Below, in pieces: positions 13,944 to 40,462 of a stretch of DNA of 46,468 bases. Under the pieces are notes generated by a model that was not told the origin of the DNA, did no database searches, and saw only the letters and a program-made list of their open reading frames with translations. The first letter of the stretch is position 1, and each line of letters begins with the position of its first letter. The position numbers and the translations under genes were made by a program. The DNA comes from Deltaproteobacteria bacterium (GTDB lineage: Bacteria > Desulfobacterota > Desulfobacteria > Desulfobacterales > B30-G6), in NCBI GenBank assembly GCA_022340465.1, contig JAJDNW010000013.1, forward strand, positions 1 through 46,468. Reading direction: 5' to 3'.

Positions 13944-14107
13944 GCTATCTCCTCCTATTTACTGAAAACCCCATCATGTTTGCACAGGATTTTTTCTCCG
14001 CTTTCATTTGCATGGATATATTGAGTCATTTGAAATTATTTAGAATTTAGATATTGGAATTTCCAATTTTTCCCGGGTTGGGATTTAGCTTTTTATATTT
14101 TTCCCAC

Positions 14108-15445: not shown

Positions 15446-15968
15446 AGGCTCCCTCCTTGTCTCTGTCTCTTTAGAGATCTACTGAATTCTTTGCCTGATG
15501 CAACGGTTACGCATCACGCCCCCCGCTTGTCGCTACAAGGGCAATTTAAGCCTGAATAAAAAAAGTAATTATAATTCAATCTCTTTGGGATGACAATAAA
15601 AAAATTTAATCTATCACTGATCGGGGTGAACGTTCACGACGCTGCCCAGACCCCACCGCAGGGTGTGGACAGGCGTCCAAGGCAATCGGTTTTTTTTATT
15701 GTCGCCCTGCCCCTAAAAAACCTTGACGACCGCTCGATTCCTAGGTTACAAAACGGACAAATTATAGCTACATATAGGTGATCATCCGTCATGCAGGGGC
15801 TCGGAGCTTCCCGCAGGCGGCATGCTTCAAAGACACCACGTCTCCGATCGTTTATGTTCCAATCACAAAGACAGCTAGCGGCAGGCTTTCTCGATATAGG
15901 ACAAACCTATTCGGATGGCTGACCGCAGGCTGAAAACCAACACATTACGACCATGAAAGGGGTTCGTC
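15446..15968. other. 523-bp divergent control region of the pyrimidine locus
   Basis: No gene is supported here. It separates preT (minus) and the beta-ureidopropionase gene (plus), so promoters for both must lie inside it. Short inverted repeats include CTTGT...ACAAG at 15526-15539 and ATAGG...CCTAT at 15896-15910, the latter about 60 bp before the plus-strand start. The middle is A+T-rich around 15550-15610. No riboswitch was recognised. Confidence 0.5.
15526..15539. promoter_or_regulatory. Inverted repeat upstream of preT, possible GntR-family site
   Basis: CTTGT and ACAAG arms with a four-base centre lie about 81 bp upstream of preT. The arms resemble those of the larger palindrome before the GntR gene (TTTGT...ACAAA, five-base centre). 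A common regulator is an inference from that partial likeness only. Confidence 0.3.
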
Positions 15969-16838
15969 ATGTCAAGAATCGTCAAATGCGCCCACATCCA
16001 AGCCTCCAACGCCAAACACGATGGCAGCCCTGCGGACATCAAGGCGGCCATGATCGAAAAACACATCCCGCTTATCGAGGAAGCCGGTGAGAAAGGGGTC
16101 AACATCCTCTGCCTGCAGGAAATATTCTACGGCCCCTATTTCTGCGCCGAACAGGACACCAAGTGGTATGCCACGGCCGAAACGGTTCCCGGGCCCACCA
16201 CCGACAGGTTGGCCGAATATGCCAAAACGTACAACATGGTGATGGTCATTCCGGTATACGAAATGGCCTTGGATGGCGTGTACTACAATACCGCCGCCGT
16301 AGTGGATGCCGACGGTAAATACCTGGGCAAGTTCAGGAAGGTTCAGATACCGCACACCTGGCCCGGCTTCTGGGAAAAGTTCTATTTCAAGCCCGGCAAC
16401 CTCGGATTCCCGGTGTTTCAGACCGCTTACGCTAAAATCGGCATATTCATCTGCTATGACCGCCATTTTCCCGAATGCGCCCGTGTCCTGGCCCTCAACG
16501 GCGCTGAAATCCTGTTTAACCCCTCGGCGACCACCGCGGGAAAATCCCAGTACCTCTGGGAACTGGAGCAACCGGCCCAAGCCGTGGCCAACGGGGTCTT
16601 TATCGGTGCCAACAATCGGGTCGGGCTTGAAAAACCATGGGAATTCGGCCGCTTTTACGGCTCCAGCTACTTTGTCGACCCGCGCGGCGAGATTATGGTC
16701 AGAGGCAGCGAGGACAAGGACGAGGTGGTGATCGCGGATCTGGATCTGGAGTTGATTCGCGAAGTCAGGGACGGATGGCAATTCTTCCGGGACCGACGGC
16801 CGGAAATGTACACGGAAATCTGTCAGCAATTGCCATAA
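15969..16838 (+). CDS. Beta-ureidopropionase / N-carbamoyl amide hydrolase (nitrilase superfamily)
   Basis: The 289-residue protein carries the nitrilase-superfamily triad: E51 in LCLQEIFYGPYF, K124 in GKFRKVQIPH and C162 in FICYDRHFPE. Branch features (YNTAAVVDADG, FNPSATTAGKSQYLWELEQPAQAVANGVFIGANNRVG) fit N-carbamoyl-beta-alanine or N-carbamoylputrescine hydrolases. With preTA and hydA across the divergent promoter region, hydrolysis of N-carbamoyl-beta-alanine to beta-alanine, CO2 and ammonia is the natural role. It heads the plus-strand series, 162 bp before the uracil permease. Motif assignment is secure, exact substrate inferred from context. Confidence 0.9.
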   Translation: MSRIVKCAHIQASNAKHDGSPADIKAAMIEKHIPLIEEAGEKGVNILCLQEIFYGPYFCAEQDTKWYATAETVPGPTTDRLAEYAKTYNMVMVIPVYEMALDGVYYNTAAVVDADGKYLGKFRKVQIPHTWPGFWEKFYFKPGNLGFPVFQTAYAKIGIFICYDRHFPECARVLALNGAEILFNPSATTAGKSQYLWELEQPAQAVANGVFIGANNRVGLEKPWEFGRFYGSSYFVDPRGEIMVRGSEDKDEVVIADLDLELIREVRDGWQFFRDRRPEMYTEICQQLP

Positions 16839-16858
16839 TAACATCGCTGTGCACTGTC

Positions 16859-16884
16859 ATGAAACGCGGCTGCGCCGCTACCTC
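16859..16884. repeat. REP-like hairpin, copy 1
   Basis: ATGAAACGCGGCTGCGCCGC contains GCGGC and GCCGC arms (16866-16870 and 16874-16878) around TGC. It matches the element at 41307 with a compensated base-pair change, and partly the one at 18596. It lies between the ureidopropionase and permease genes. Confidence 0.5.
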
Positions 16885-17000
16885 GACAAGCATCGTGAGC
16901 AGCCTGAAAACACCTGCTTCGGCAAGCGATCAAGATCTGATATGTTATATCCAAATAATCCCGTGTGCGGGACAACCATGGAAGGAGGAAAGGAGAACCT

Positions 17001-18569
17001 ATGAGCGAAGAACAGAAGGAACACAAACACTGGATCGTTTACCCTATCGGGAGCAAGCCCAAATGGGGCCTCGCCATACTACTGGGTATCCAGCAGTACC
17101 TGACCATGTTCGGGGCGACCGTACTGATCCCCTTCATCGTCGGCGGCGCTATGGGGCTGCCCCCCCATCAACTGGCGTTGTTGATCTCCACCATCTTTTT
17201 TACCTCGGGATTGTGCACCCTCATTCAGCAGTCCCCCCTCGGCAACAAGCTGCCGGTTATTCAGGGCGGGACGTTTTCTTTTTTAGGGCCCACATTCGCG
17301 ATACTCGGCCTGTGCACCGCCGAATTGGCTACCAGTGCAGGCATCCCCTTGTGGCAGTTGAAAATCCAGATGGTTGCCGGCGCCATCATGATCGCATCCG
17401 TGGTTGAAATCGTGCTGGGCTACACGGGCATTATGGGCCAGGTGCGCAAGCTGATCAGCCCCATCGTCATCGGCCCCACCATCGCCATGATCGGTCTGGC
17501 GCTTTTCGGTATCGGCGCCCCCTGGATGGCCACCAACTGGGTCATCTCTCTCGTCACCTTGATCTCCCTGATTCTCTACTCGCAGGTGTTTTCCCAGAAA
17601 TCGAGAGTGTTCATGCTGTTTCCGGTGCTGCTGGCCATTGCCACGGGCTGGATCCTCTCGCTTCTGGGAACCATCACCGGCCTGATTCCAGACGGCAACG
17701 CCGCCAACCTGACCGGCAAGCTCGGCTTGATCGGTTCGGCATCCTGGATCAGCTTCATGCCCATGATGCCGTTCAAGTGGGGTTTCCCGAACTTCGGCAG
17801 TTCCGTGCTGTGGGCCGGCGTTTTCGGCATGCTGGCCGGTTACCTGGCCTCCATGATCGAATCCATCGGCGACTACTACGCCTGCGCCCGCATCTCCGAA
17901 GCCCCCGTGCCCACGGGCAATATGATTTCCAGGGGCCTGGGCGCCGAGGGCCTGGGCTGCCTGGTGGCCGGGATCATGCAGACGGCCAACGGCACGACCA
18001 CCTACTCCGAGAACATCGGCTCCATCGGCCTGACCAAGGTCGCCAGCCGGCGCGTGGTGCGCTGCGGGGCGGCCGTCATGCTGATCATTCCGATCATCGG
18101 CAAATTCGGGGCCGTTTTGGCCACGTTGCCCATGCCGGTTGTCGGGGCCATGTTCGTGGGCCTCTTCGGTATGATCGCCTCGGTGGGTCTTTCCAACCTG
18201 CAGATCGTCAACCTGAACAACTCACGGAACCTGTTCATCATCGGCCTCAGCTTCTTTGCCGGCCTCAGCGTCCCCTTCTGGTTCACCGCCCATGTTGATG
18301 CGGGAACGGGTCAGATCGTCAGCGGCGCTCTCGCATGGGGGACCCCGGGCAGCTTCATCAACGTCATCGGCAACATCATCCAGGCCATCATAAGCACGGG
18401 TATGGCCGTTACCGCCATCATCGGCATTATCCTGGACAACCTGCTTCCCGGCGCCACCCGCGCCGAAAGAGGCCTGGAAATCTGGGAGAGCGAAGCCTCC
18501 GATGAAGCCTGGGAAGAGGCCGAGGCCCAGTGGGCCGCCATGAAAGAAGGCGAGATGAGGCCCATCTAA
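17001..18569 (+). CDS. Uracil/xanthine permease, NCS2 family
   Basis: The 522-residue protein has about 12-14 membrane helices. The start chosen is ATG 17001 (MSEEQKEHKHW), directly after AGGAGGAAAGGAG; an upstream in-frame start lacks such a site. NCS2 features are GLAILLGIQQYLTMFGATVLIPFIVGG, LPVIQGGTFSFLGP, the glutamate-containing SMIESIGDYYACAR and NGTTTYSENIGSIGLTKVASR. It imports a nucleobase, most likely uracil, by proton symport across the inner membrane. Position inside the pyrimidine-degradation locus supports uracil or thymine over purines. Confidence 0.93.
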   Translation: MSEEQKEHKHWIVYPIGSKPKWGLAILLGIQQYLTMFGATVLIPFIVGGAMGLPPHQLALLISTIFFTSGLCTLIQQSPLGNKLPVIQGGTFSFLGPTFAILGLCTAELATSAGIPLWQLKIQMVAGAIMIASVVEIVLGYTGIMGQVRKLISPIVIGPTIAMIGLALFGIGAPWMATNWVISLVTLISLILYSQVFSQKSRVFMLFPVLLAIATGWILSLLGTITGLIPDGNAANLTGKLGLIGSASWISFMPMMPFKWGFPNFGSSVLWAGVFGMLAGYLASMIESIGDYYACARISEAPVPTGNMISRGLGAEGLGCLVAGIMQTANGTTTYSENIGSIGLTKVASRRVVRCGAAVMLIIPIIGKFGAVLATLPMPVVGAMFVGLFGMIASVGLSNLQIVNLNNSRNLFIIGLSFFAGLSVPFWFTAHVDAGTGQIVSGALAWGTPGSFINVIGNIIQAIISTGMAVTAIIGIILDNLLPGATRAERGLEIWESEASDEAWEEAEAQWAAMKEGEMRPI

Positions 18570-18573
18570 ACCT

Positions 18574-18592
18574 AAAAGAACGGCGTTCTTTT
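18574..18592. terminator. Perfect hairpin just after the permease gene
   Basis: AAAAGAAC and GTTCTTTT arms with a GGC loop start five bases after the permease stop. The A-run and T-run make it symmetrical, so it could act as a terminator in either direction or stabilise the mRNA 3' end. Confidence 0.5.
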
Positions 18593-18595
18593 GGT

Positions 18596-18627
18596 GCCCG
18601 CGGCTTCGCCGCTGTTGGAGCCTATAC
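18596..18627. repeat. REP-like hairpin, copy 2
   Basis: GCGGC (18600-18604) and GCCGC (18608-18612) enclose TTC and are followed by GGAGCCTATAC, like the CTCCTATAC after the copy at 41307. It follows directly on the hairpin at 18574, the same arrangement as at 41284-41334. Confidence 0.45.
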
Positions 18628-18658
18628 GGAGGGCAGACCCTTTCGGCCTGCCCTCCGT
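18626..18658 (+). terminator. Strong hairpin terminator downstream of the permease
   Basis: Perfect 11-bp stem ACGGAGGGCAG (18626-18636) with its complement at 18648-18658 and an 11-base loop, followed by TCGTTATTTC. The tail is only moderately T-rich. It lies just before the small membrane protein gene. Confidence 0.6.
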
Positions 18659-18695
18659 TCGTTATTTCATTCCACGCCTCACGACGATACGCTCG

Positions 18696-19070
18696 ATGCC
18701 GTTTATGAAATTTGTATACACATTACTGATCGCCTTCGGCCTCGTGGCCATGTATGCCATTCTGAATGCCGGCAACCCCGACAGCCTGCTCAGATCGTTG
18801 TTTCCCGATCCGTCCTGGGACGTCACCGTCGCCATGGTATCTTCGCTGATCGTTTTCGTGCTCGGCTTCGTGGTGTTCTTCAACCGTGACAGCGAAGGAT
18901 TTCGCAATCTGATCGAATTGAACGGGGAGCGCATTCGGGAGATGCGCGCCGCGGGGCACTCCGATGAAGAGATTGCCGATTCGATCCTGGAGGCCATGGG
19001 CAGCCGCGGCGGCTACCGCCACAAGCTGACGCGCAAGAAGCTGGTGGTGTACTTGGCTCAGTATACGTAA
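18696..19070 (+). CDS. Small two-helix membrane protein, function unknown
   Basis: The 124-residue protein starts at ATG 18696 (another ATG at 18705); the open frame extends further upstream, but that part overlaps hairpins and is not protein-like. Helix 1 is about 6-23 (VYTLLIAFGLVAMYAIL) and helix 2 about 43-65 (VAMVSSLIVFVLGFVVFF). The C-terminal cytosolic part has a small helical motif MRAAGHSDEEIADSILEAMG, reminiscent of short helix-hairpins, and a basic tail. The next gene begins 21 bp downstream and also encodes a membrane-anchored protein, so they probably act together. No known family recognised. Confidence 0.65.
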   Translation: MPFMKFVYTLLIAFGLVAMYAILNAGNPDSLLRSLFPDPSWDVTVAMVSSLIVFVLGFVVFFNRDSEGFRNLIELNGERIREMRAAGHSDEEIADSILEAMGSRGGYRHKLTRKKLVVYLAQYT

Positions 19071-19091
19071 ATAAGGTAACCACTGGTCATC

Positions 19092-19559
19092 ATGCAAAAT
19101 CTCTACGCCAATCAGCAATGGGTCTACATCGCCCTTATCTTTTTCGGCATCATCGGCTATATCGCCTTCATCCGCTGGCGCGACCGCCAGTGGATCGAAA
19201 AGCGGTTCGGTCATGCCAAAATTCTGGCCATGAGTTTCGGAGTGAACTATTTCGGCCGCGAGGCCGAACCGGGAAAGCCGGGGAAAAGCAGCGGGTTCCT
19301 GCTGCTCCTCGAAGACCGGCTGTTTTACCGCAGCCGGACCGCCCGGCTGGAACTGGAAATTATCGGGCAAAACATCGCCCGCGTGTACCCGGACAGCAGC
19401 ATCAAAGGCGTCGAGCTGCATCAGTCCGTCATGAAAATCGACTTCATCAACGAAAACCGCGACCGGGACAGCGTCGCCTTCAAAGTTCCTTACCCGCCCC
19501 AGTGGATCCGTGCCATAGAAAACAATCTGTTGAAAAATACGCCCCCCCCGCAAGATTAA
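19092..19559 (+). CDS. Membrane-anchored protein with soluble beta-rich domain, function unknown
   Basis: The 155-residue protein has one N-terminal helix (about 9-27, WVYIALIFFGIIGYIAFI), then RWRDRQWIEKRFGHAKILAMSFGVNYFGREAE and a soluble domain with alternating strands (FLLLLEDRLFYRS, LELEIIGQNIARVYPD, MKIDFINE, SVAFKVPYP). The strand pattern is like small pleckstrin-type or GRAM-like domains, but that is only an impression. It forms a pair with the preceding two-helix protein and precedes the GntR gene. It could be a membrane scaffold of the pyrimidine locus or simply a passenger. Confidence 0.65.
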   Translation: MQNLYANQQWVYIALIFFGIIGYIAFIRWRDRQWIEKRFGHAKILAMSFGVNYFGREAEPGKPGKSSGFLLLLEDRLFYRSRTARLELEIIGQNIARVYPDSSIKGVELHQSVMKIDFINENRDRDSVAFKVPYPPQWIRAIENNLLKNTPPPQD

Positions 19560-19732
19560 ACGAAATCCGACGTAAGGCGTAAGCAGTGAATCGTTAGACG
19601 TTAGACGTGAAGCGTGAGGCTGTGAAACGGGCACTGCGCCTTGTGCCTTATGAAACATCGGTTTTAGATAAAGATAATTATCTTTTAATATCAATATGTT
19701 GAATAAATAAATCTAAATATCATAATATTTAT

Positions 19733-19755
19733 AATATTTGTTTTATACAAATATT
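19733..19755. promoter_or_regulatory. Long palindrome upstream of the GntR gene, probable autoregulatory operator
   Basis: Arms AATATTTGT (19733-19741) and ACAAATATT (19747-19755) are perfect over nine bases around TTTAT. The core TTTGT...ACAAA fits the style of FadR-subfamily GntR operators. It ends 13 bp upstream of a TTGACA element and about 100 bp before the regulator's start. Confidence 0.5.
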
Positions 19756-19768
19756 TCTCACATTCCGG

Positions 19769-19797
19769 TTGACAAAGGATTTTGGATACCTTATTGA
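19769..19797 (+). promoter_or_regulatory. Candidate sigma-70 promoter for the GntR gene
   Basis: TTGACA at 19769-19774 is followed after 17 bases by TATTGA at 19792-19797. The -35 box is perfect and the -10 box weak. It lies 60 bp before the GntR start, immediately downstream of the palindrome. Confidence 0.45.
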
Positions 19798-19856
19798 GCG
19801 GATAAAAGACACTTGATCGGGTCTTCATCCTAGTGTCCAAGCCCTTGTGAGGCATC

Positions 19857-20597
19857 ATGTTTAAAACAGCGCGAACCAGCACGGTGACCCAAAAAATTAT
19901 CGGACAAATCCGCACGGCAATTTTAAAGGGCCGGCTCAAACCCGGCGACGTTCTGCCGCCGGAAAAGGCACTGGTGGAGCAGTTCGGCGTGAGCAAGCAG
20001 ACCCTCAGGGAATCGTTGCGGGCCCTGGAACACATGGGCCTGATCGATGTCCGCAAAGGCATCGGCGGCGGTGCCCACATCGTTGAAGTCGACATCGAGG
20101 TCACCAAGCAAAGTCTGGCCAATTTCCTCTATTTCAAAGACCTCACCATCGAGAACCTGTCCGAACTGCGTAAACTGATCGAGCCGCACGCTGCCAGACG
20201 GGCTGCCGAAACCATGCCCGAAGAGGGCCTTCGCATTCTCGGCGGACTCAACGCCAGGGCCTGGGAAAACCTCGATAAAAAATTCATGCAGGAGATGAGT
20301 CGCAACGAAATCGACTTTCACCGGGTGATTGCCCAGACAACCAACAACCCCATTCTGGTCCTCCTGCTCGACTTTGTCGAAGATCTGCTGGAAGATTTCA
20401 AAAAAGTTCTCAAACCCGATATGGATTTTTCCAAATCCGTGCTGGACGCCCACGAAAGAATATACGCGGCCATTTCTGACAAGGATAGCGAAAGAGCCGC
20501 CGCCGAGATGTATCGCCATGTACAGGAGGTCGAAGATCATCTGGCCAAACTGAAAGAGGGCATCGACTTGTGGCAGGCATGTCTCAAACAAGCCTAA
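19857..20597 (+). CDS. GntR-family transcriptional regulator, FadR/FCD subfamily
   Basis: The 246-residue protein has an N-terminal winged helix (about 8-75): VTQKIIGQIRTAILKGRLKPGDVLPPEKALVEQFGVSKQTLRESLRALEHMGLIDVRKG, the full GntR signature. The C-terminal helical domain (90-240) fits FCD ligand-binding domains, with ELRKLIEPHAARRAAE and later metal-ligand histidine positions (DFHRVI, DAHERIY). It probably responds to a pyrimidine-pathway or acyl intermediate and controls the mmsA operon starting 42 bp downstream, and perhaps the divergent preT region. The upstream palindrome suggests autoregulation. Confidence 0.9.
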   Translation: MFKTARTSTVTQKIIGQIRTAILKGRLKPGDVLPPEKALVEQFGVSKQTLRESLRALEHMGLIDVRKGIGGGAHIVEVDIEVTKQSLANFLYFKDLTIENLSELRKLIEPHAARRAAETMPEEGLRILGGLNARAWENLDKKFMQEMSRNEIDFHRVIAQTTNNPILVLLLDFVEDLLEDFKKVLKPDMDFSKSVLDAHERIYAAISDKDSERAAAEMYRHVQEVEDHLAKLKEGIDLWQACLKQA

Positions 20598-20639
20598 ATT
20601 TTCATTTAGAAAACCTAATTTTAAAACAGGAGGGACGAC

Positions 20640-22094
20640 ATGAGCTTACCAGTGATTAAAAACTACATTAACGATGAATGGGTCGATTCGAACACCACGA
20701 CATTCGGTGATGTTTGGAACCCGGCCAAGGGTGAAAAAATCGCCCAGGTGCCCTATGGAACCAGGGAAGACGTGGATGCGGCCGTCAAAGCGGCCAGGGC
20801 GGCTTTCCCGGAATGGCGAGCCACGCCACCGCTTACCAGGGCCCGCTACCTGTTCCGCCTCAAGGACGCGTTTGAGGAAAACTTCGAAGAAATTGCCAGA
20901 GTACTCACCACCGAACAGGGCAAAGCGATCGACGAATCCCGCGGAGAGGTCCGCCGCATGATCGAGAACGTGGAACACGCCACCGGTGTCACCACCCTGA
21001 TGTGCGGTTACACGCTGGAAGATATCGCCAAGGACATCGACTGCTACGGGCATCGCCAGCCCATGGGGGTTTTTGCGGCCATCGTGCCCTACAACTTCCC
21101 CGGCATGGTCGCCTGGTGGTTCCTGCCCTACGCTCTGGTCACCGGTAACACCTTCATTGTCAAACCCTCCGAGCAGGTGCCCATGACGCAGACCAAAATA
21201 TTTGAAATCGTGGAAGAGGTGGGTTTCCCGGAAGGTGTTGTCAACATGGTCCACGGATCACGCGACGTGGTCAACGCGCTTCTGGACCATCCGGATATCG
21301 AAGGCATCTCCTTTGTCGGCTCGACCCCCACGGCCAAATACATATACCAGCGCTGCGGCGAAACCGGTAAACGCGTGCAGGCTCTCGGCGGCGCCAAGAA
21401 CATCGTGGCCATCATGCCGGATGCCGACTTGAATGCCGGTATGCCTTCCCTGACCACATCGTTTTACGGTTGTGCCGGCCAGCGCTGCCTTTCCGGTTCG
21501 ATTCTCGCACCGGTAGGGGATATCGCGGATAAACTCAAGGAACAATTCGTGGCCGCCGTCAAGGAGATCAAGGTGGGCGACGGGCTGGATGAACAAACCT
21601 TCATGGGCCCCGTGATCAGTGCCGCCCACAAGGAAAGGGTGCTGGGGTACATTGAAAAAGGCATCGCAGAAGGCGCCGAGCTTGTGCTTGACGGCCGCAA
21701 CTATGAAGTCGACGGCTACCCCAACGGCTTCTTTGTCGGCCCCACCATATTCGATAACGTCACCCCGGATATGACCATCGCCAAAGAAGAAATTTTCGGA
21801 CCCGTCGTGAGCATCGTCCGCACCAAAAACCTGGACGAGGTCATCGAACTGATCAACACCCGCGGCTATGCCAACGCCGCCTGCATCTATACGAATAGCG
21901 GGCCAGCGGCGCGTGAATTCAAGTATCGGGTCAAACCGAGCATGGTCGGCATCAACATCGGTATCGCCGCCCCCATGAGTTTCTTCCCCTTCGGCGGCTC
22001 CGGCAACTCCATGTTCGGCGACACCAAGGGTCATGGACAGGAAATATTCAACTTCTTCACCGACACGAAAGTGGTCATACAGCGTTGGTTCTAA
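20640..22094 (+). CDS. mmsA: Methylmalonate/malonate-semialdehyde dehydrogenase (CoA-acylating)
   Basis: The 484-residue protein is an aldehyde dehydrogenase superfamily member of normal MMSDH length. PYNFPGMVAWWFLPYALVTGNTFIVKPSE is the signature; FVGSTPTAKYIY binds NAD, and the catalytic cysteine is C283 in GCAGQRC. ALGGAKN replaces the usual ELGGK, so the general-base Glu of hydrolytic ALDHs is missing, as expected for CoA-acylating enzymes. Here it would convert malonate semialdehyde from beta-alanine into acetyl-CoA, CO2 and NADH. It has an AGGAGG ribosome site, and the aminotransferase producing its substrate lies two genes downstream. Confidence 0.93.
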   Translation: MSLPVIKNYINDEWVDSNTTTFGDVWNPAKGEKIAQVPYGTREDVDAAVKAARAAFPEWRATPPLTRARYLFRLKDAFEENFEEIARVLTTEQGKAIDESRGEVRRMIENVEHATGVTTLMCGYTLEDIAKDIDCYGHRQPMGVFAAIVPYNFPGMVAWWFLPYALVTGNTFIVKPSEQVPMTQTKIFEIVEEVGFPEGVVNMVHGSRDVVNALLDHPDIEGISFVGSTPTAKYIYQRCGETGKRVQALGGAKNIVAIMPDADLNAGMPSLTTSFYGCAGQRCLSGSILAPVGDIADKLKEQFVAAVKEIKVGDGLDEQTFMGPVISAAHKERVLGYIEKGIAEGAELVLDGRNYEVDGYPNGFFVGPTIFDNVTPDMTIAKEEIFGPVVSIVRTKNLDEVIELINTRGYANAACIYTNSGPAAREFKYRVKPSMVGINIGIAAPMSFFPFGGSGNSMFGDTKGHGQEIFNFFTDTKVVIQRWF

Positions 22095-22113
22095 TCCATT
22101 AGAAACAGTGGCG

Positions 22114-22143
22114 GGCCCCACCACCGTGCAGCATGGTGGGGCC
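22114..22143. promoter_or_regulatory. Stable hairpin between mmsA and the ferritin-like gene
   Basis: Perfect 10-bp stem GGCCCCACCA / TGGTGGGGCC with a 10-base loop, no T-tract. It may protect the mmsA transcript or attenuate readthrough rather than terminate fully. Confidence 0.5.
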
Positions 22144-22224
22144 ACCGCCGCCGGAACGCCTTAAATGAATTGTTTCCACCCAAGTTGAGCGTTTCAAATT
22201 AGGTTAACGTATGAGGAGAATGAC

Positions 22225-22653
22225 ATGCCGCTTATCAATTTCGGGAGTATTTTAAGCTTTGCAGAAGAGCTGGAAAAGCAGGACGAGGACTTTTATGCCG
22301 CCGTGGCGGCCAATCCCGCCTTTTCCGATCAAAAGGACCTCTTCGAACAATTTTTAAAAGATGCCCGCAAAAACATCAAAACCGTGCAGCGCACCCGGCG
22401 CGAAAACGTCACCGAAATGATCCTGGAAAAGATCAACGACTTCACCCGGGCGCCCTATTGCGAAGAGGTCGACCCGGCGGAAGCTGAAAGTATCGGGGAC
22501 ATCCTCGACTCCGCCCGCTGCCTCGAAAAGAGGGCGGAACGCTACTACACTGATGCCGCCGTTAAAATCAAGGCGCTGTCCGAAGTGTCACGGGCATTGA
22601 AAACCATCGGTAAAAAGCATACCGCCCACTTGAGAAAACTGGATACCCTATAG
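22225..22653 (+). CDS. Ferritin-like four-helix protein of the beta-alanine operon
   Basis: The 142-residue, all-helical protein opens with SFAEELEKQDEDFYAAVAANP, the type of helix found in rubrerythrin/ferritin-like proteins. Later helices hold CLEKRAERYYTDAAVKIK and KTIGKKHTAHLRKL. Carboxylate and histidine residues (E15, E17, E101, E105, H132, H135) are placed where metal ligands could be, but the canonical ExxH pairs are incomplete, so a di-iron site is uncertain. It has a GAGGAG ribosome site and ends 17 bp before the aminotransferase, so it is part of that operon. A role in protecting or supplying metal to a pathway enzyme is possible; function unknown. Confidence 0.6.
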   Translation: MPLINFGSILSFAEELEKQDEDFYAAVAANPAFSDQKDLFEQFLKDARKNIKTVQRTRRENVTEMILEKINDFTRAPYCEEVDPAEAESIGDILDSARCLEKRAERYYTDAAVKIKALSEVSRALKTIGKKHTAHLRKLDTL

Positions 22654-22670
22654 AACAGGAGGATCGTGCC

Positions 22671-24050
22671 ATGAGCGATATGGAAAACAGGGTCAAGGAG
22701 ATGGCCGCCCACAGTTTCGGTACCTGGAACTGGCAGAAAAACTGGAAGGCGCCCCTGCTCATCGACGACGCCGAAGGCGTCTACATTGTCGACAAGAACG
22801 GCAAACGCTACATCGATTTCTCTTCCCAATTGATGTGCTCCAATCTGGGTCACAAAAACCAGGCTATCATCAGCGCCATCAAAAAACAGGCCGATAAGCT
22901 GCCCTATGTGGCCCCGGGTTTTACCACGGAGGTCGCCGTGGAAGCCATCGAGGCGTTGAGAACGGTGATGCCCGCCGGCCTGGATAAATTCTTTTTTTCG
23001 ACCAGCGGCACGGAGGCCAATGACGGCGCCCTGGTAATCACCCGTCAGTCCAAGGCACCGTCTTTCAAGGTGATCTCGCGCTATCACTCCTACCACGGGG
23101 CAACGCCTGCAGGCATGGCCCTTACCGGTGACCCGCGCAGATGGCCGGTGGAAAGGGTGCGTTACACGGTGGACGGCGTCTGCTTCGCCCCCGACTGCTA
23201 CTGCTACCGCTGCCCCTTCGGTCAGACCTACCCCGACTGCAAGGTCCAATGCGCCCGCTACCTGGACTACATGATCAAGGAGGAGGGCAATGTCGCCGCC
23301 GTGTTCGTCGAACCGGTCGTGGGCACCAACGGCCGCCTGGTTCCGCCCCCCGAGTACTTCCCCATTCTGCGCAAGATCTGCGATGAAAACGACGTACTGC
23401 TCATAGCGGATGAAGTCATGACCGGCTGGTACAGGACAGGCCCGGCCTTTGCCATGCAGAACTGGGACGTTCTCCCGGACATCATGACCACGGCCAAGGG
23501 GTGCACCTCCGCCTACATGCCGCTAGGCATCACCGCAACCACCAAGTCAGTGGCCGATTTCTTTGAAGACGAATTCTTCTGCCACGGACACACCTACGCA
23601 TTCCACGCGATGTCGCTTTCCGCGGTCAAACCGGCCGTGGCAGAGTACAAGAAGCTTTTGGATACGGGGTTGCCCCAAAAAGTCGGCCCTTACTTGAAGG
23701 AAAGACTGTTCGAATTGGGTGAAAAGCATCCCTGCGTAGGCGATGTACGGGGACTGGGCCATTTCTACGCCCTCGAAATCGTAAAAAACCGGGAAACCAG
23801 GGAGCCCTTCGACGTCAAGGCCGACAAGCTCAGCGGCAAACCACTGATGGCGGGAAAAATCGCCGGTGAAGCCATGCAAAACGGCTTATACATCGCTGCC
23901 TGGTATGACACCCTGACCATAGCGCCGCCCCTGATCATCAGCGAAGCCGAAGTCGACGACGCCATCGCCATCCTCGACCGGGCTCTCGCCGTCGGCGACC
24001 GGGACGCTGCGGACACGGCTGTGCCGGTATCACGGTCAACCGAGTATTAG
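22671..24050 (+). CDS. Class III aminotransferase, probable beta-alanine (or taurine):pyruvate transaminase
   Basis: The 459-residue PLP enzyme has STSGTEANDGAL (phosphate loop, 110-121), SRYHSYHGATPAGMALTG, D247 in LIADEVMTGWYRTG and the Schiff-base lysine K276 in MTTAKGCTSAYMPLG. It reads closest to omega-amino acid transaminases such as taurine:pyruvate aminotransferase. Context (mmsA next door) makes beta-alanine to malonate semialdehyde the likely reaction. Six cysteines lie within residues 171-194 (CFAPDCYCYRC... DCKVQC), potentially a zinc or iron-sulfur knuckle seen in some members of this group. It has an AGGAGG ribosome site. Taurine use cannot be excluded from sequence alone. Confidence 0.88.
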   Translation: MSDMENRVKEMAAHSFGTWNWQKNWKAPLLIDDAEGVYIVDKNGKRYIDFSSQLMCSNLGHKNQAIISAIKKQADKLPYVAPGFTTEVAVEAIEALRTVMPAGLDKFFFSTSGTEANDGALVITRQSKAPSFKVISRYHSYHGATPAGMALTGDPRRWPVERVRYTVDGVCFAPDCYCYRCPFGQTYPDCKVQCARYLDYMIKEEGNVAAVFVEPVVGTNGRLVPPPEYFPILRKICDENDVLLIADEVMTGWYRTGPAFAMQNWDVLPDIMTTAKGCTSAYMPLGITATTKSVADFFEDEFFCHGHTYAFHAMSLSAVKPAVAEYKKLLDTGLPQKVGPYLKERLFELGEKHPCVGDVRGLGHFYALEIVKNRETREPFDVKADKLSGKPLMAGKIAGEAMQNGLYIAAWYDTLTIAPPLIISEAEVDDAIAILDRALAVGDRDAADTAVPVSRSTEY

Positions 24051-24059
24051 GTCTTTCAA

Positions 24060-24088
24060 CCCGGAGTGAATCAGGTGTTCGCTCCGGG
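24060..24088 (+). terminator. Terminator after the aminotransferase
   Basis: An 11-bp stem CCCGGAGTGAA / TTCGCTCCGGG (one G-T pair) with a seven-base loop, then CCGTTTTC, beginning ten bases after the stop codon. Confidence 0.65.
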
Positions 24089-24272: not shown

Positions 24273-27239
24273 GTGGCGCTGGACATCGGTACATTCATCA
24301 AGGATTTCGATGCGCGTTTCAAACTGTTTCACGAGCTCATGGCCAACAAGGTCCGGGACGTCCTGCTGGTTTCGACGCCCTACGATGCCTGGATCATGGA
24401 AGAGGATGTCCGGCTTTCGGAGAGAATCATCCACGAATACAGGGGCCTGAACCTCAGCAACCCGCCTCGGCTCACCTGGGTGTCTATGGCGGACGAAGCG
24501 CTGAAGGCCCTGGATGAAAAAAAGTTCGACATGGTGATCACCATGCCGCGGGTGGCCGACATGGACTGCCTTGCCCTCGCCAAGCAAATCAAGCAGAGGG
24601 ACCCCAGTCTGCCGGTCGTCCTTTTCGCCCACAGCGCCATCACCTCGGTGGAATTCTACCCCGGCGACACCAAACCGGAGGGGGTCGACCGGGCCTTTGT
24701 CTGGTCCGGCAACACCGACATTCTCGTGGCCTTGATCAAAAGTGCCGAGGACCGGTTGAATGTCGAACGCGACACCCAGTCGGCAGGCATCCGGGTGATC
24801 CTGTTTGTGGAAGACTCCCCCCTTTACGTCTCGTCCCTGCTCCCCATCCTGTATCGGGAACTCGTGAGTCAAACCCAGGCGGTTATGGAAGAGGGCCTGA
24901 ACGAGGAGCATCGACTCCTTGCCATGCGTGCTCGTCCCAAGATTCTGATTGCCGAAAACTACGATGAAGCCATCGAGATATACGAAAAGTACAAACCCTA
25001 TATCATCGGCGTCATCTCGGACGTGCGTTTTCCCAAGAACGGACATCTGTGTGCCGATGCGGGGGTGCAACTGCTTTCCAAAATAAAAGACGACCGTTGG
25101 GATATACCGCTGCTGCTCACCAGCTCGGAACCTTTAAATGCAAAAAAAGCAAAACCCATTCCCGCTTTTTTTGTGGACAAAAACTCACCGGCCCTGCACG
25201 CCGAGGTTCACAATTTCTTCATCGACCACCTCGGGTTCGGTGATTTCATCTTCCGTGACAAAAACGGCCGGGAAATAGACCGGGCCTCCAATCTCAGGAC
25301 CCTGGAAAAAAAGATTCAGGCCATTCCAGATGAGTCCTTCCTGATGCATGCCAGCAGAAACGACTTCTCACGCTGGCTGTTCGCACGTACGGAAATTGTA
25401 CTGGCGTCTAAGCTGCGTCCGGCCACTTTTGACGATTTTTCAAATGACCCCCGCGACATGCGCGAGTGGCTTGTTTCCACCATTCGCGAACGCCGCAGCA
25501 GGCGCCAAAAAGGCATTATCGTCAATTTCGAAGCCCACGACTTCGATCTCGAAACCGAATTCTTTAAAGTGGGCAAAGGCTCCCTCGGAGGGAAGGCCAG
25601 AGGCCTGGCCTTTGCCTCCAGCCTGTTGCAGCACAAGACCGACCTGCATGCCAGGCATCCGGAAGCCCGCATCATCGTCCCCCAATCACTGGTTGTGACG
25701 ACCGAGGGCTTCGATGCTTTCATCGAGAACAACAAGCTGATCAACCTGGCCAACAGCGACATACCGGATGAAAAAATAGCTCAGATTTTCCTCGATGCCG
25801 ACATACCCGGATGGATAAAAGAGGACCTGATCGCCTACATGAAAAAGGTGGACTACCCAATTGCCATCCGTTCTTCGAGCCTGCTGGAGGATGCCCAGTT
25901 CAGGGCCTATGCCGGCCTCTATCGGACCTACATGCTGCCAAACGACTGCGCGGATTTCAGCATGCGACTCGAGCACCTGCTGACCGCCATCAAACTCGTG
26001 TATGCCTCCACCTACTTTCACGGGCCGAAATCCTTTTCACAACGGGTGGGGCACCGAACCGAAGAGGAGAAAATGGCCGTCATCATTCAGAAGATGGTGG
26101 GCAGAAACTACGACGGCCATTTTTACCCTGCCATTTCGGGAGTGGCCCAGTCCCACAACTACTACCCCTTTTCGCACATGAAGCCGGAGCAAGGCATTGC
26201 CACCATTGCCATCGGCCTGGGGAAAATGGTTGTGGAGGGCGAAAAAACCCTGCGGTTTTCCCCCCGCTACCCTCAACTGCTGCCACAGCGCTCGACCGTG
26301 GAGGATATCCTGGAAAATTCCCAGCGTTTTTTCTACTCGCTGAGACTGAACAACGACTGCCCCCTTCTGGGCATCAACGACAGTCAGAATCTGGAGAAAA
26401 GGGAAATTTCGGATGCCGAAAAGGAGCCGGCGGTGGCCATGCAATCATCCACCTACATCCCGGCCGAACACCGCATCCGGGACACCGTACACGTTCCCGG
26501 ACACCGGGTGGTGACCTTCGCCCAAACACTCAAGTACAACGCTTTCCCCCTGGCAGATATCCTTTCCGAATTTCTATCCATCGGCGAAGAGGGCATGGGC
26601 TGCCCCGTAGAGCTGGAATTCTCTGTCAACCTCAGTCAGGGGGACGACGGCAAACCGGAGTTTGCCGTTCTCCAGCTCAGGCCCATGACCGCCCGGGCGG
26701 AACTGGAAACCGTAGACATTCATGAGGAAGAACGCAAGAAGGCCTTCTGTATTTCGCACAAAGCCCTGGGAAATGCCGTAAATAAAGAGATCACGGATGT
26801 GGTCTATGTCAAACCGGATGTTTTCGACCCCGCCAATACGATCGCGATCGCACGAGAGATCGGTGAAATGAACAAAATCCTTTTGCAAAAGAAAAGGAAG
26901 TATCTGCTTGTCGGACCCGGGCGGTGGGGCTCCGCGGATCAATGGCTGGGAATACCGGTTGGATGGGCCGACATCAGTGGTGTCGGCGCCATTGTCGAAA
27001 CCACTTCCGATCTGATCAAGGCCGAACCATCCCAGGGATCGCACTTTTTTCACAACATTACTACCATGGGCATAAACTACATCAACATCACCCATGCAAC
27101 CGACGATTTTTTTGATTGGGAGTGGCTGGCTGCCGTCCCGATCAGGCATGCCCTGAAGCATGTTGCCCACGTAAAGCTTGACCAGGCCATGACGATTAAA
27201 GTCGATGGCAGGAAATCGTGCTGTGTCATCTACGTGTGA
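24273..27239 (+). CDS. Receiver-linked PEP/pyruvate-binding (PPDK-N) protein, 988 aa
   Basis: The start is GTG 24273 after AGGAGG. Residues about 28-160 form a degenerate receiver-like fold (DVLLVST, FDMVITMPRVADMD, without the acceptor Asp). Residues 174-320 form a second receiver with E180/D181, acceptor D250 in GVISDVRFP, LLTSS and K303 in FVDKNS, all intact. From about 430 comes an ATP-binding domain of the PEP synthase/pyruvate phosphate dikinase type: GKGSLGGKARGLAFA (434-448) and YPIAIRSSSLLEDAQFRAYAGLY (528-550). No swivelling phosphohistidine motif or PEP-binding TIM barrel is visible; the last 200 residues (KYLLVGPGRWGSADQWLG) are different. It therefore looks like a phosphorylation-controlled kinase or nucleotide-binding protein, not a PEP synthase. 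Product and target unknown. Confidence 0.75.
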   Translation: MALDIGTFIKDFDARFKLFHELMANKVRDVLLVSTPYDAWIMEEDVRLSERIIHEYRGLNLSNPPRLTWVSMADEALKALDEKKFDMVITMPRVADMDCLALAKQIKQRDPSLPVVLFAHSAITSVEFYPGDTKPEGVDRAFVWSGNTDILVALIKSAEDRLNVERDTQSAGIRVILFVEDSPLYVSSLLPILYRELVSQTQAVMEEGLNEEHRLLAMRARPKILIAENYDEAIEIYEKYKPYIIGVISDVRFPKNGHLCADAGVQLLSKIKDDRWDIPLLLTSSEPLNAKKAKPIPAFFVDKNSPALHAEVHNFFIDHLGFGDFIFRDKNGREIDRASNLRTLEKKIQAIPDESFLMHASRNDFSRWLFARTEIVLASKLRPATFDDFSNDPRDMREWLVSTIRERRSRRQKGIIVNFEAHDFDLETEFFKVGKGSLGGKARGLAFASSLLQHKTDLHARHPEARIIVPQSLVVTTEGFDAFIENNKLINLANSDIPDEKIAQIFLDADIPGWIKEDLIAYMKKVDYPIAIRSSSLLEDAQFRAYAGLYRTYMLPNDCADFSMRLEHLLTAIKLVYASTYFHGPKSFSQRVGHRTEEEKMAVIIQKMVGRNYDGHFYPAISGVAQSHNYYPFSHMKPEQGIATIAIGLGKMVVEGEKTLRFSPRYPQLLPQRSTVEDILENSQRFFYSLRLNNDCPLLGINDSQNLEKREISDAEKEPAVAMQSSTYIPAEHRIRDTVHVPGHRVVTFAQTLKYNAFPLADILSEFLSIGEEGMGCPVELEFSVNLSQGDDGKPEFAVLQLRPMTARAELETVDIHEEERKKAFCISHKALGNAVNKEITDVVYVKPDVFDPANTIAIAREIGEMNKILLQKKRKYLLVGPGRWGSADQWLGIPVGWADISGVGAIVETTSDLIKAEPSQGSHFFHNITTMGINYINITHATDDFFDWEWLAAVPIRHALKHVAHVKLDQAMTIKVDGRKSCCVIYV

Positions 27240-27430: not shown

Positions 27431-28780
27431 ATGTCCGACATTGTACAGCTCGTAAAAACCAGGGACCCGGACCAGCCTGAGTTTCACCAGGCCGTAACCG
27501 AGGTCATGGAATCGATCGAACCGGTCATCGAACGCAACCCCGAGTACCGTCAGGCCAAAGTGATGGAAAGAATCGTTGAGCCGGAACGGGTCATCATGTT
27601 CCGGGTGCCCTGGATGGACGACAAGGGCAACGTCCAGGTCAATCGCGGGTTTCGCATCGAGATGAACAGCGCCATCGGCCCCTACAAGGGAGGCTTGCGG
27701 TTTCACCCGTCCGTCAACCTGGGCATCCTGAAATTTCTGGCGTTCGAACAGGTCTTTAAAAATGCCCTGACGACCCTGCCCATGGGCGGCGGCAAGGGCG
27801 GGTCCGATTTCGACCCCAAAGGAAAGTCCGACAACGAGGTCATGCGCTTCTGTCAGAGCTTCATGGCCGAACTCTTCCGCCACATCGGCCCCAACACGGA
27901 CGTGCCCGCCGGCGACATCGGGGTAGGGGCCAGGGAAATCGGTTTCCTGTTCGGCATGTACAAAAAACTGCACAATGAATTCAGCGGGGTTTTAACCGGC
28001 AAGGGTCTGAGCTGGGGCGGCAGCCTGATCAGGCCGGAAGCCACCGGATACGGTTCGGTCTACTTTGCTTCCGAAATGCTCAAGACCAGAAACATGTCGC
28101 TGGACGGCAAAACCTGCCTGGTATCGGGATCGGGAAACGTGGCCCAGTACACCATCGAAAAAATACTGGACCTGGGCGGCAAGGTGATCACCTGTTCCGA
28201 TTCCAGCGGCTATATCTACGACGAGGAAGGCATCGACCGCGACAAGCTGGCCTACCTGATGACGATCAAGAATGTCCGCCGCGGCCGGGTAAAGGAATAC
28301 GCCGAAAAATACCCCCATGCCGTCTACACGGCGGTTGACCCGGCCCTGGGCCACAACCCCTTGTGGGACCACAAGGCCGACTGCGCCTTCCCCAGCGCCA
28401 CCCAGAACGAAATCAACGCCAAGGACGCCCAGAACCTGGTCAACAACGGGGTGTCTTCCGTCTCCGAGGGCGCCAACATGCCCACGGTTCCCGAAGGTAT
28501 CGAAATATTTATCGAAAATAAACTGTTGTACGGCCCCGGAAAGGCGGCCAACGCCGGCGGTGTATCTGTTTCCGGGCTGGAAATGACCCAGAACAGCATG
28601 CGCCTGGGCTGGTCTCGCAAGGAGGTCGATGAGAGGCTGCACCGGATCATGATCAGCATCCACAAAACCTGTATGAACACGGCCGAACAGTACGGCACGC
28701 CGGGCAACTACATGAACGGGGCCAATATCGCCGCATTTGTCAAGGTGGTGGACGCCATGCTGGATCAAGGGCTGGTATAG
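27431..28780 (+). CDS. gdhA: Glutamate dehydrogenase, hexameric bacterial type
   Basis: The protein has 449 residues from ATG 27431, which follows GGAGGG at 27420. An open frame begins upstream, but that DNA is minisatellite-like and the 449-residue product equals the usual GdhA length. Motifs are GPYKGGLRFHPSVNLGILKFLAFEQ, catalytic K122 in PMGGGKGGSDFDPKGKSD, RHIGPNTDVPAGDIGVGAREIGFL and the nucleotide-binding VSGSGNVAQYTIEK. It interconverts 2-oxoglutarate plus ammonia and glutamate; cofactor preference is probably NADP(H). At the end of the pyrimidine locus it could assimilate the ammonia released from uracil, or regenerate the amino acceptor. Confidence 0.95.
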   Translation: MSDIVQLVKTRDPDQPEFHQAVTEVMESIEPVIERNPEYRQAKVMERIVEPERVIMFRVPWMDDKGNVQVNRGFRIEMNSAIGPYKGGLRFHPSVNLGILKFLAFEQVFKNALTTLPMGGGKGGSDFDPKGKSDNEVMRFCQSFMAELFRHIGPNTDVPAGDIGVGAREIGFLFGMYKKLHNEFSGVLTGKGLSWGGSLIRPEATGYGSVYFASEMLKTRNMSLDGKTCLVSGSGNVAQYTIEKILDLGGKVITCSDSSGYIYDEEGIDRDKLAYLMTIKNVRRGRVKEYAEKYPHAVYTAVDPALGHNPLWDHKADCAFPSATQNEINAKDAQNLVNNGVSSVSEGANMPTVPEGIEIFIENKLLYGPGKAANAGGVSVSGLEMTQNSMRLGWSRKEVDERLHRIMISIHKTCMNTAEQYGTPGNYMNGANIAAFVKVVDAMLDQGLV

Positions 28781-29769: not shown

Positions 29770-30819
29770 CTACCCGACCGTTATCATCTCGCGGGTATCG
29801 GTCACGACGTCGCCGATCACCACCGCATCTTCCACCCCGCCCTCTTTCAAGGCAGTCACCAGTGAATGCGCCTGATTCGGATCTACACTGATCAGCAGCC
29901 CCCCGGATGTCTGAGGATCGAAGAGAACATCCTGCAGGGAACGGGGGATGTCGTCACCGAAGACGACCATGGCCTCACGAAACGACCGGTTGTTGTGGCC
30001 ACCGCCGGGGATCATGCCCATGGCGGCGAAATCGAGAGCCTCCGCGATGACCGGCACCCGTTGAGCATCGATCTTTGCGCCGGTGCCCGAGCCTTCGATC
30101 ATTTCGGCCAAATGCCCCAGGAGCCCGAAACCGGTCACGTCCGTACATGCGCTGACATCGAAATCCATCATGATCTCCGCGGCATAACGGTTCAAGGCGG
30201 CCATCAGGTGTGTCACCCTGTCGGTCAGTTCCGCAGAGACCATCCCCGCCTTGACGGCGGTGTTGATGATGCCGGTACCCAAAGGCTTGGTCAGCACCAG
30301 TTTATCACCGGGCCGCAGCGTTTTTTTGGCCAGAACCCGATCCGGGTGAACCACGCCGGTCACGGAGAGGCCGTACTTGAGTTCCTTGTCTTCGATGCTG
30401 TGCCCGCCCAACAGGACCACCCCGGCCTCTTTCATCTTGTCGATGCCGCCCTGGATAATCTGCCGCAGGATGGACAGGTCCATCTCCTTGACGGGGAAGG
30501 CCACCAGGTTCATGGCCGTCTTCGGCGTGCCGCCCATGGCATAGACATCACTCAACGCGTTGGCCGCTGCGATCTGCCCGAACCAGTAAGGATCGTCCAC
30601 GATGGGCGTAAAAAAATCGACCGTCTGAATCAGCGCCAGGTCGTCCGCAATTTTGTAAACACCGGCGTCGTCGGCCCGCTCCAGCCCGATAATCACGTTC
30701 TCGTCGGCGGGAAACACCATGCCGCACAACGCTTTGTCCAGGTCCCCCGGACTCAGCTTGGAGGCTCAGCCGGCCCCGGCGACCGTTCCGGTCAAGCGGG
30801 TTTCCTGTAAACGTTTCAT
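29770..30819 (-). CDS. selD: Selenide, water dikinase (selenophosphate synthetase) with in-frame UGA selenocysteine
   Basis: The protein has 349 residues if UGA at 30766-30768 is read as selenocysteine at position 18. Upstream of that codon the frame reads MKRLQETRLTGTVAGAG from ATG 30819 (GAGGGG ribosome site). Downstream it continues ASKLSPGDLDKALCGMVF without a break. This aligns with the SelD active-site motif GAG-C/U-xxK, the Sec at E. coli Cys17 and the Lys three residues on. Later motifs GLERADDAGVYKI, TVDFFTPIVDDPYWFGQIAAANALSDVYAMGG and LLGGHSIED are typical. It makes selenophosphate from selenide and ATP. A gene caller would start at 30729 and lose the active site. selA, selB and selC are not in the window. 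Confidence 0.93.
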
Positions 30820-31091
30820 ACATCCCCTCGTGTGGTTTTGGTACGGTGCGATTACCTTGTTCGCACGGGCAACATAATCTGTTTTGCCCTTAATCACAAG
30901 ACAGAAAAGACATTCGGCGGCGCGGTTCAAAGACAAATAAAAAAATGTTAGAACCTTGAAATATTTATTGACCATCCTTACTTTATCCTGTAGGTAGGCA
31001 ATTCGCCGAGTGATAAGCGATTGGAAATGTTGCGATGATGCGCGGATTTAGAAAAAGAAAGCGATGCCGGGAACAATGCAGGGGATGCTGC

Positions 31092-38097: not shown

Positions 38098-39264
38098 ATG
38101 AATTATCACGTATCAGACGCCTACACCGCCCTCAGAGGCACCATCCGCGATTTAATGGAAAACGAAATGGAGCCCCTTTCGATGCAGATCGAACGAAACG
38201 GGGAGATTCCGGAAGCTATTTTGGACCGGCTCCGCAAACTCGGCCTCTTCGGCATGCCGATCCCCAGGGAATACGGCGGCCTGGGGCTGACGACCCTCGA
38301 AGAAGTCATGACCTACGAGCTCCTGACCTGGACCAACGCATCCATTCGGTCGCGTATCGGAACCAGCAACGGCATCGGTTCCGTGGGAATCCTCTACGAC
38401 GGCACCGACGCCCAGAAACGAAAATACCTGCCGCGCATCGCCAGCGGTGAGTGGACGACGGCCTTTGCCCTGACCGAGCCGGATGCCGGTTCCGACGCAG
38501 CCAGCATCCGCACCAGCGCGGTCCTGGAGGGAGATTGCTGGATTCTCAACGGAACCAAGCAGTTCATCACCAATGCCGATTGTGCCCAGTTGTTCACCAC
38601 CATCGCAGTGACGGACGAAGTCAAGCGCGCCCGCGGCGGCGTAACCGCCTTCATCGTCGAAAAAGAGATGCCCGGCCTGGTGGTGGGGCCGGCCGATGTT
38701 AAGATGGGATTGCGAGGGTCGCATACCCATGAGTTGATTTTCACCAACTGCCGGATTCCCAAAGAGAACGTCATCGGTGGAGAATCCATGGTGGGCAAGG
38801 GCTTTCACACGGCCATGCGGGTGCTGGACAAGGGACGCCTGTCCATGGGAGCCTGTGCGCTGGGGGGTTCCCAGAGAATTCTGGAACTCTGCATCGACCG
38901 GGTGCATCAGCGCATGGACCGAGGCGAGACGGCGAATGACCTGCAGTCCGCGAATTTTGACCTGGCGGACATGGCCATCCAGATTCACGCGGCCCGGCAG
39001 ATGCTCTACCATGCAGCCGTCAAACGGGACCAGGGGGAAAATGTCACCCACGAGGCGTCCATGCTCAAGGTGTTCGCCACCGAAATGGCCAGCAAGATCG
39101 CCGGAAAGGCCCTGGACCTGTTCGAGACCGACGGTCTTCTGACCCGGCACCTCATCGAGATGTACCTGCGCGATTCCCGGCTGTATCGAATTTATGAAGG
39201 CACAAACGAAATCCAGCGGCTGATCATTTCCAGGAGCCTGCTTAATCGCAAAAAGACCGGATAA
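38098..39264 (+). CDS. Acyl-CoA dehydrogenase, canonical type
   Basis: The 388-residue FAD enzyme has all expected features: FALTEPDAGSDAASIRT (substrate and FAD binding), WILNGTKQFITNADCAQLF, GLRGSHTHELIF and the catalytic base E367 in RIYEGTNEIQRLIISRSLL. The ribosome site is GGGAG. It oxidises an acyl-CoA to 2-enoyl-CoA, passing electrons to ETF. Chain length cannot be read; the motifs are nearest to short/branched-chain members. It is followed by a second dehydrogenase after 42 bp and preceded by the ligase relic. Confidence 0.94.
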   Translation: MNYHVSDAYTALRGTIRDLMENEMEPLSMQIERNGEIPEAILDRLRKLGLFGMPIPREYGGLGLTTLEEVMTYELLTWTNASIRSRIGTSNGIGSVGILYDGTDAQKRKYLPRIASGEWTTAFALTEPDAGSDAASIRTSAVLEGDCWILNGTKQFITNADCAQLFTTIAVTDEVKRARGGVTAFIVEKEMPGLVVGPADVKMGLRGSHTHELIFTNCRIPKENVIGGESMVGKGFHTAMRVLDKGRLSMGACALGGSQRILELCIDRVHQRMDRGETANDLQSANFDLADMAIQIHAARQMLYHAAVKRDQGENVTHEASMLKVFATEMASKIAGKALDLFETDGLLTRHLIEMYLRDSRLYRIYEGTNEIQRLIISRSLLNRKKTG

Positions 39265-39306
39265 GGACCAGAATTTCAATACTTGATCAAGAGGAGTGAG
39301 CGCTTT

Positions 39307-40455: not shown

Positions 40456-40462
40456 AAAAAGC

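Follow-up and report, generated by a model that had tools for sequence, protein, structure and literature searches.

The chemistry of the ATP-grasp domain is established from phosphoenolpyruvate (PEP) synthase, and the phosphohistidine domains of PEP enzymes carry the signature G-[GA]-x-[STN]-x-H. Glutamate dehydrogenase (GDH) decides whether carbon and ammonium join as glutamate or separate. In actinobacteria, GarA with PknG is described, in an excerpt of PMC2881912, as a phosphorylation-dependent regulator of GDH, and the title of Baggio and Morrison (1996) reports a gene near gdhA of Bacteroides thetaiotaomicron with an effect in trans on GDH activity. Here we analysed a gene for a 988-residue protein in a 46,468-nucleotide stretch of a Deltaproteobacteria genome (contig JAJDNW010000013.1; this whole stretch is the window, and its phylum, judged by the nearest named relatives, is Desulfobacterota). 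The protein joins two receiver domains to a PEP-synthase-type ATP-grasp domain, and its relatives recur beside GDH genes in several phyla. We consider the chances even that it is a dedicated GDH regulator built from PEP-synthase parts, a reading that draws on the predicted domain anatomy, on invariant residues of catalytic type and on the recurrent linkage to GDH genes.

The open reading frame (ORF) begins with GTG behind AGGAGG, a good ribosome-binding site, and is laid out as follows.

24273..27239, + strand: whole gene, 988 residues, comprising receiver 1, receiver 2, linker, PPDK-type ATP-grasp domain and conserved C-terminal domain
24348..24752, + strand: receiver 1 (residues 26-160), degenerate, from residue counts and a model match to the PorX receivers (Z 14.6)
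24786..25238, + strand: receiver 2 (residues 172-322), intact, from conservation and a single-receiver model match (Z about 14)
25239..25553, + strand: linker (residues 323-427), mostly helical, from Pfam and the AlphaFold model
25554..26690, + strand: PPDK/PEP-synthase ATP-grasp domain (residues about 428-806), from Pfam (E 5.8e-37) and structural matches
26685..27236, + strand: C-terminal domain (residues 805-988), predicted to be a diverged swivelling phosphohistidine domain by fold comparison of the AlphaFold model
26913-26930, + strand: GPGRWG motif, its P (P882) variable among relatives
27042-27044, + strand: codon of the invariant H924, within the motif SxG[ST]HFF

A database scan with the protein returned 42 related loci, titled as Deltaproteobacteria/Desulfobacterales, Chloroflexota (Anaerolineae, Caldilineae), Bacteroidales, Prevotella, Ignavibacteria and Chlorobiota, and 32 full-length homologues are 38-84% identical to the window protein (alignment A1, 33 rows; a second alignment, A2, has 32). 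The gene is thus conserved, and the ORF did not arise by chance. Searched with the whole protein, Pfam recognized PPDK_N at residues 437-822 (E 5.8e-37) and Response_reg at residues 66-119 (E 9.7e-08), and no further family passed its cut-off; at E<=1 there was neither a PEP/pyruvate-binding barrel family nor a HisKA or HATPase domain. The linker matched no family confidently, DUF5752 (E 0.059) falling under its cut-off. The AlphaFold model, built with 33 aligned sequences (mean pLDDT 81.6, pTM 0.67), contains two receivers, the linker, the ATP-grasp domain and a swivel-like C-terminal domain, after which the chain stops. The reading of the ORF as receivers followed by a PPDK-type ATP-grasp domain, which the original prediction had made from the letters alone, is thus confirmed, and no complete PEP synthase domain set appeared in the profile search.

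Conservation in the receivers was counted in 61 receiver-type sequences, covering the window and 37 of the 42 loci, with the partial L028, L029, L033, L039 and L042 excluded. The features of a response regulator (acidic pair, Asp, Ser/Thr, Lys) are complete in receiver 2 only: K303 (codon 25179-25181) and E180 occur in 61/61 sequences, D250 (codon 25020-25022) and S284 in 60/61 each, and the second acidic residue, D181, is D in 53, N in seven and S in one. In receiver 1, Met91 stands at the expected Asp site in 59/61 and Trp144 near the expected Lys site in 61/61, in a register that is our own reading of the alignment. The pairing of a phosphorylatable receiver with a degenerate one was proposed originally around D250 and K303; both domains are present in the model, and these residues are conserved.

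For the rest of the protein we used 77 aligned sequences, namely the 61 receiver-type ones, window included, and 16 others (some rows are closely related; L129, a split gene, and L144, missed by the ORF caller, were left out, while L127, with an over-long start, was kept). K441, R533, E782 and Q801 are invariant in all 77, and R803 is R in 75 and K in two; going by family knowledge, we take these five to be catalytic residues. The ATP-grasp residues were also retained in eight further proteins from four more regions. Structural comparison of the model from residue 428 on gave as its top match rifampin phosphotransferase (5hv1; Z 25.9, rmsd 2.7, 282 residues aligned). PEP synthase (2ols) superposed with Z 25.7 and rmsd 4.3 over 360 residues, 428-988 onto 8-465, and PPDK (1dik) with Z 19.4 and rmsd 4.6 over 352 residues, 416-988 onto 6-510, each range giving the first and last aligned residue only. 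With the ATP-binding domain of rifampin phosphotransferase alone (5hv6), 280 residues align, and the 2ols and 1dik superpositions, therefore, include some 70-80 residues more; their ranges extend beyond the ATP-grasp domain to the C-terminus of the model. The PPDK/PEP-synthase ATP-binding domain of the original prediction is, thus, borne out by profile, by structure and by invariant residues.

We think it fairly likely that residues 805-988 form a diverged swivelling domain. H924 is present in all 77 aligned sequences and in the eight further proteins (85 in total); E909, S920, G922, F925 and F926 are likewise invariant in the 77, and P882 varies among the eight additional proteins. Modelled alone, the domain reached a pLDDT of 88.7 and a pTM of 0.87, and the predicted helix 120-127 of this isolated model starts at H924, right after 'GS'. 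In a second-look structural alignment against pre-ranked PDB entries, six of the eight best matches were phosphohistidine domains, led by 5fbu (rifampin phosphotransferase, Z 6.9) and followed by the PPDK entries 1vbg, 2fm4, 2x0s, 1kbl and 2r82 (Z 5.9-6.6). We presume that the matched residue ranges are the phosphohistidine domains, except for 2fm4, which is so titled.

Several observations weigh against this assignment. A DRTGG domain (2ioj, Z 6.6) and the C-terminal part of pyruvate kinase (2e28, Z 6.4) tie with the phosphohistidine domains, and Z values of 6-7 are in a range, below 8, that may reflect a common arrangement. At E<=0.001 Foldseek matched nothing to the isolated domain, a profile-profile test against the phosphohistidine domains of six paralogues from the same genome detected no kinship (probability 0.3%), and global alignment of the whole core paired H924 with no His. 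The PEP-enzyme signature is not matched either, the conserved motif here being S-x-G-[ST]-H-F-F. The original prediction had seen neither a phosphohistidine domain nor a PEP-binding barrel. The absence of the barrel stands, and that of the His domain holds by sequence profiles; by fold comparison, however, it does not, and, judging from the models, this part of the claim was probably wrong.

In the window, the GDH gene follows on the same strand, 191 bases after the end of the 988-residue gene. Its ORF had been listed from 27326, which is probably too early, the start most likely being at 27431.

27431..28780, + strand: glutamate dehydrogenase gene gdhA, 449 residues, Pfam ELFV domains, ATG behind GGAGGG

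Among the 42 related loci, many of which end at contig edges, GDH lies in the fetched flanks of 16 and within about 2 kb in 15; the chance expectation for GDH within 2 kb is about 0.2-0.6%. The five Chloroflexota loci L021, L022, L023, L027 and L039 have a divergent GDH upstream. We extended the count to whole genomes, where 2-kb distances in the window's phylum, the phylum of L037 (Ignavibacteria) and Chloroflexota (the phylum of L021) rely on estimated gene lengths and on GDH matches at E<=1e-29. In the window's phylum, 44 of 198 genomes carry the C-terminal domain (47 hits), and 33 of the 47 hits are no more than 2 kb from GDH, a figure that counts L144 and L146, whose GDH genes are overlain by longer opposite-strand ORFs. 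GDH occurs in 44/44 genomes with the domain versus 51/154 without it (Fisher p 1e-17, phylogeny not corrected; these 95 genomes with GDH at E<=1e-29 compare with 107/198 at E<=0.001). Only five of the 47 hits are of the receiver type, three of them linked to GDH. In the 118 genomes of the L037 phylum, at least 28 of 38 hits are within 2 kb of GDH, and in 121 Chloroflexota genomes the domain occurs in 10 (11 hits). Prevotella's family (that of G001, the genome of L032, Prevotella amnii; inferred to be Bacteroidaceae) has the gene in 53 of 61 genomes, a few cut or broken copies included (among them G010, G022, G028 and G042), with GDH within 2 kb in 21 and within 20 kb in 25 of these carriers, in three arrangements. 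Finally, the genus of G036 (inferred to be Bacteroides) was sampled through 20 regions, hand-picked and mostly on long contigs from 78 genomes with a match, and 13 of them have GDH in the stretch.

The relatedness of these genomes makes them non-independent, yet the loci differ in orientation, in side and in the identity class of the GDH. GDH is found on either side and on either strand of the gene, the linked GDHs fall into two classes with about 55-80% and 31-38% identity to that of the window, and in L168 and L169 two regulator genes alternate with two and three GDH genes, respectively. The original prediction took the gene's position between a beta-alanine aminotransferase and GDH as a hint of carbon-nitrogen control. 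Recurring across several phyla, gene linkage strongly supports the GDH half of this hint, and the homologues do co-occur with GDH, contrary to the idea that they never would; the aminotransferase half did not hold, as a close homologue of that enzyme (81-88% identical) adjoins the gene in only three of the 42 loci (L001, L026 and L036). Literature searches, from whose coverage most subscription papers fall out, returned no paper describing the link between gene and GDH.

The case for a GDH regulator is weakened by a number of counts. No GDH lies inside 2 kb in 32 of the 53 carriers of Prevotella's family, where GDH is present in 60/61 genomes and co-occurrence, therefore, says little. In the window's phylum, two of the five receiver-type hits (G247 and G287) are unlinked, and in the G036 genus no GDH turned up in seven of the 20 regions. 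In the L037 phylum co-occurrence is not significant (19/20 versus 85/98, p 0.46, among the matches listed, where G568 is a carrier without GDH). Chloroflexota linkage is weak, with at least two of 11 hits within 2 kb, and co-occurrence there says little (10/10 versus 93/111 among the matches listed). Nor did a comparison of 46 linked with 17 unlinked GDHs reveal a clear difference at a modifiable residue, only clade-like ones; 'linked' here covers every GDH located on a fetched stretch together with the gene, GDHs below 50% identity or 420 aligned residues and overlapping-set loci were dropped, and L164-L166 were excluded.

The same linkage bears on whether the protein might instead be a small-molecule phosphotransferase or ligase, comparable to rifampin phosphotransferase or PigC, both of which have this ATP-grasp domain, acting on a metabolite near glutamate and not on the GDH protein. 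The best NCBIfam scores, PigC (2.1e-16) and PEP synthase models, all far under their cut-offs, are consistent with such an enzyme, as is the top structural match to rifampin phosphotransferase, tied with PEP synthase. We think it unlikely, given that no PEP barrel was detected and no separate acceptor domain is evident, that the genes linked are two identity classes of GDH and not a pathway, and that regulator genes alternate with GDH genes in L168 and L169.

For a GDH regulator, the domain order suggests the following mechanism, in which we infer the phosphorylation of the histidine, the target and the direction of control. With ATP bound, the ATP-grasp domain would phosphorylate H924 of the swivelling C-terminal domain. 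Swinging out, the latter would then either hand the phosphoryl group over to GDH or bind and activate GDH in a manner dependent on phosphorylation. Phosphorylation of D250 by a histidine kinase would let the receiver pair gate this activity, receiver 1 being structural, and in relatives another N-terminus would stand in for the receivers. As such a regulator, the protein would probably be a receiver-gated phosphotransferase. The original prediction had put forward a phosphorelay-controlled kinase of another protein or metabolite, which is kept here as a hypothesis. That a histidine phosphotransferase of the PEP-synthase type has turned into a signalling enzyme, a new type of protein kinase in which receivers or sensors control phosphorylation of GDH through the swivelling domain, is a tentative and rather doubtful extension.

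The N-terminal part of the protein is exchangeable among relatives. Proteins of about 750-1090 residues share the core and have other N-termini, with some 180-350 residues ahead of the PPDK_N match; there was no meaningful Pfam match to these in five proteins examined. They are perhaps of more than one kind, with a GAF-like appearance in the longer ones. L170 and L167 contain proteins, of 579 and 600 residues, that start just ahead of the ATP-grasp domain with no N-terminal extension, and a relative in L055 adds a C-terminal nucleotidyltransferase domain to the conserved core. GDH lies within 2 kb of the core with another N-terminus in 12 of the 16 regions L131-L146, and GDH also adjoins the core in L055 (another N-terminus), L167 and L170, so that GDH-adjacent versions exist with receivers, with another N-terminus and with none. 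The L055 relative directly follows a GDH gene from the class less identical to that of the window (4257-4592 and 931-4200, - strand).

These versions count against a self-contained phosphorelay, in which the protein would phosphorylate its own H924 from ATP and pass the group to its own D250, replacing a histidine kinase, while the receivers signal onward to GDH or another partner. The chain does unite an intact receiver with an invariant candidate His, and no HisKA or HATPase domain was found in it. Many relatives, however, have the core without receivers, and D250 is, therefore, not a general acceptor; moreover, by the reading of their N-termini, sensor-like and response-regulator-like proteins lie between the genes in L169. 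We consider such a relay very unlikely. The L169 proteins (7784-9857, - strand; N-termini only) are situated between two regulator/GDH groups, and from their sequences the pair could be a cognate phosphorelay partner.

We then considered the gdhA factor of B. thetaiotaomicron. A 3-kb fragment reportedly restored enzyme activity in E. coli with transcription unchanged. The gene described here is 2.97 kb long, and it is the natural candidate for this trans-acting factor of 1996. In L111 the row reads GDH, this gene, catalase, GDH. We take BT_1970 and BT_1973 to be GDHs, and to equate BT_1972 with this gene is, hence, only a guess. Excerpts of two papers identify BT_1971 of B. thetaiotaomicron as a catalase, and a literature search brought up no paper about BT1972 or BT1973. 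The catalase gene of L111 separates one GDH gene from the regulator gene, and the other GDH gene is divergent from it; 'downstream of gdhA', therefore, fits only loosely.

A factor of this kind could also be non-catalytic, assisting GDH assembly or activation with ATP binding as a signal only and H924 never phosphorylated. This would fit the 1996 work, in which a trans-acting gene was reportedly needed for GDH activity and not for gdhA transcription, and the swivel-domain assignment is structural only. The invariance of K441, R533, E782 and Q801 (77/77), together with R or K at 803, argues for catalysis, and we regard a non-catalytic factor as quite unlikely. If the regulator we propose is real, it would explain post-translational control of GDH in the Prevotella/Bacteroides family and in relatives of sulfate reducers, provide a gene for the trans-acting factor of Bacteroides gdhA, and enlarge the set of known protein phosphotransferases by a signalling enzyme derived from PEP synthase. 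In the more doubtful reading as a protein kinase of GDH, it would be dedicated to the carbon-nitrogen branch point and common to sulfate reducers, other anaerobes and gut members of the Prevotella/Bacteroides family.

Two features lie immediately upstream of the gene.

22671..24050, + strand: class III aminotransferase gene, from Pfam
24060..24088, + strand: terminator-like hairpin between the aminotransferase gene and the 988-residue gene, from a consensus scan only

Between 24000 and 29100 the scan found 12 terminator-like sites versus 6.7 expected. The aminotransferase closes a stretch (11255-24050) that encodes a permease, an amidohydrolase, a Fer4_20/Pyr_redox_2 protein resembling dihydropyrimidine dehydrogenase, a GntR regulator and an aldehyde dehydrogenase, probably a cluster for reductive pyrimidine and beta-alanine degradation. 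We rejected a link of the gene to the aminotransferase or to the pyrimidine degradation genes, as only close relatives have these in common. Elsewhere in the window, the frame of a SelD-like gene (29773-30828, - strand) runs upstream through an in-frame TGA (GAG-U-ASK), which makes SelD itself a probable selenoprotein in this organism; the listed start at 30729 is too late. Large ORFs of 754 and 788 residues (297-2558 and 38155-40518, - strand) had no Pfam match at E<=0.001, and the latter overlaps opposite-strand ORFs. The window's genome also encodes an ordinary PPDK (L049) and three paralogues of 861-869 residues (L043, L044 and L046) with PPDK_N, a phosphohistidine-like motif (GH for SH) and about 300 residues more, which are apparently PEP synthase relatives with another role.

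Among the closest described systems, Desulfovibrio 0246 (D. vulgaris Hildenborough numbering) is similarly a PPDK ATP-grasp protein, in a row with the response regulator 0247, but it has an annotated mobile His domain, and the passage of PMC4001038 that describes it states no link to GDH. GarA and PknG, an FHA protein and a Ser/Thr kinase, have domains unrelated to those of the window protein. Rifampin phosphotransferase gave the top match to the whole model (5hv1) as well as to the C-terminal domain on its own (5fbu), each tied with PEP synthase or PPDK entries, whereas the window protein falls outside that family (NCBIfam 22.6 bits versus a cut-off of 999). Unlike PEP synthase and PPDK, the window protein has no detected PEP/pyruvate barrel, its His domain is not recognizable by sequence, and receivers stand in front; like them, it has the same ATP-grasp fold (Z 17.5-25.7), residues of the active-site type and, next to these, a predicted swivelling domain.

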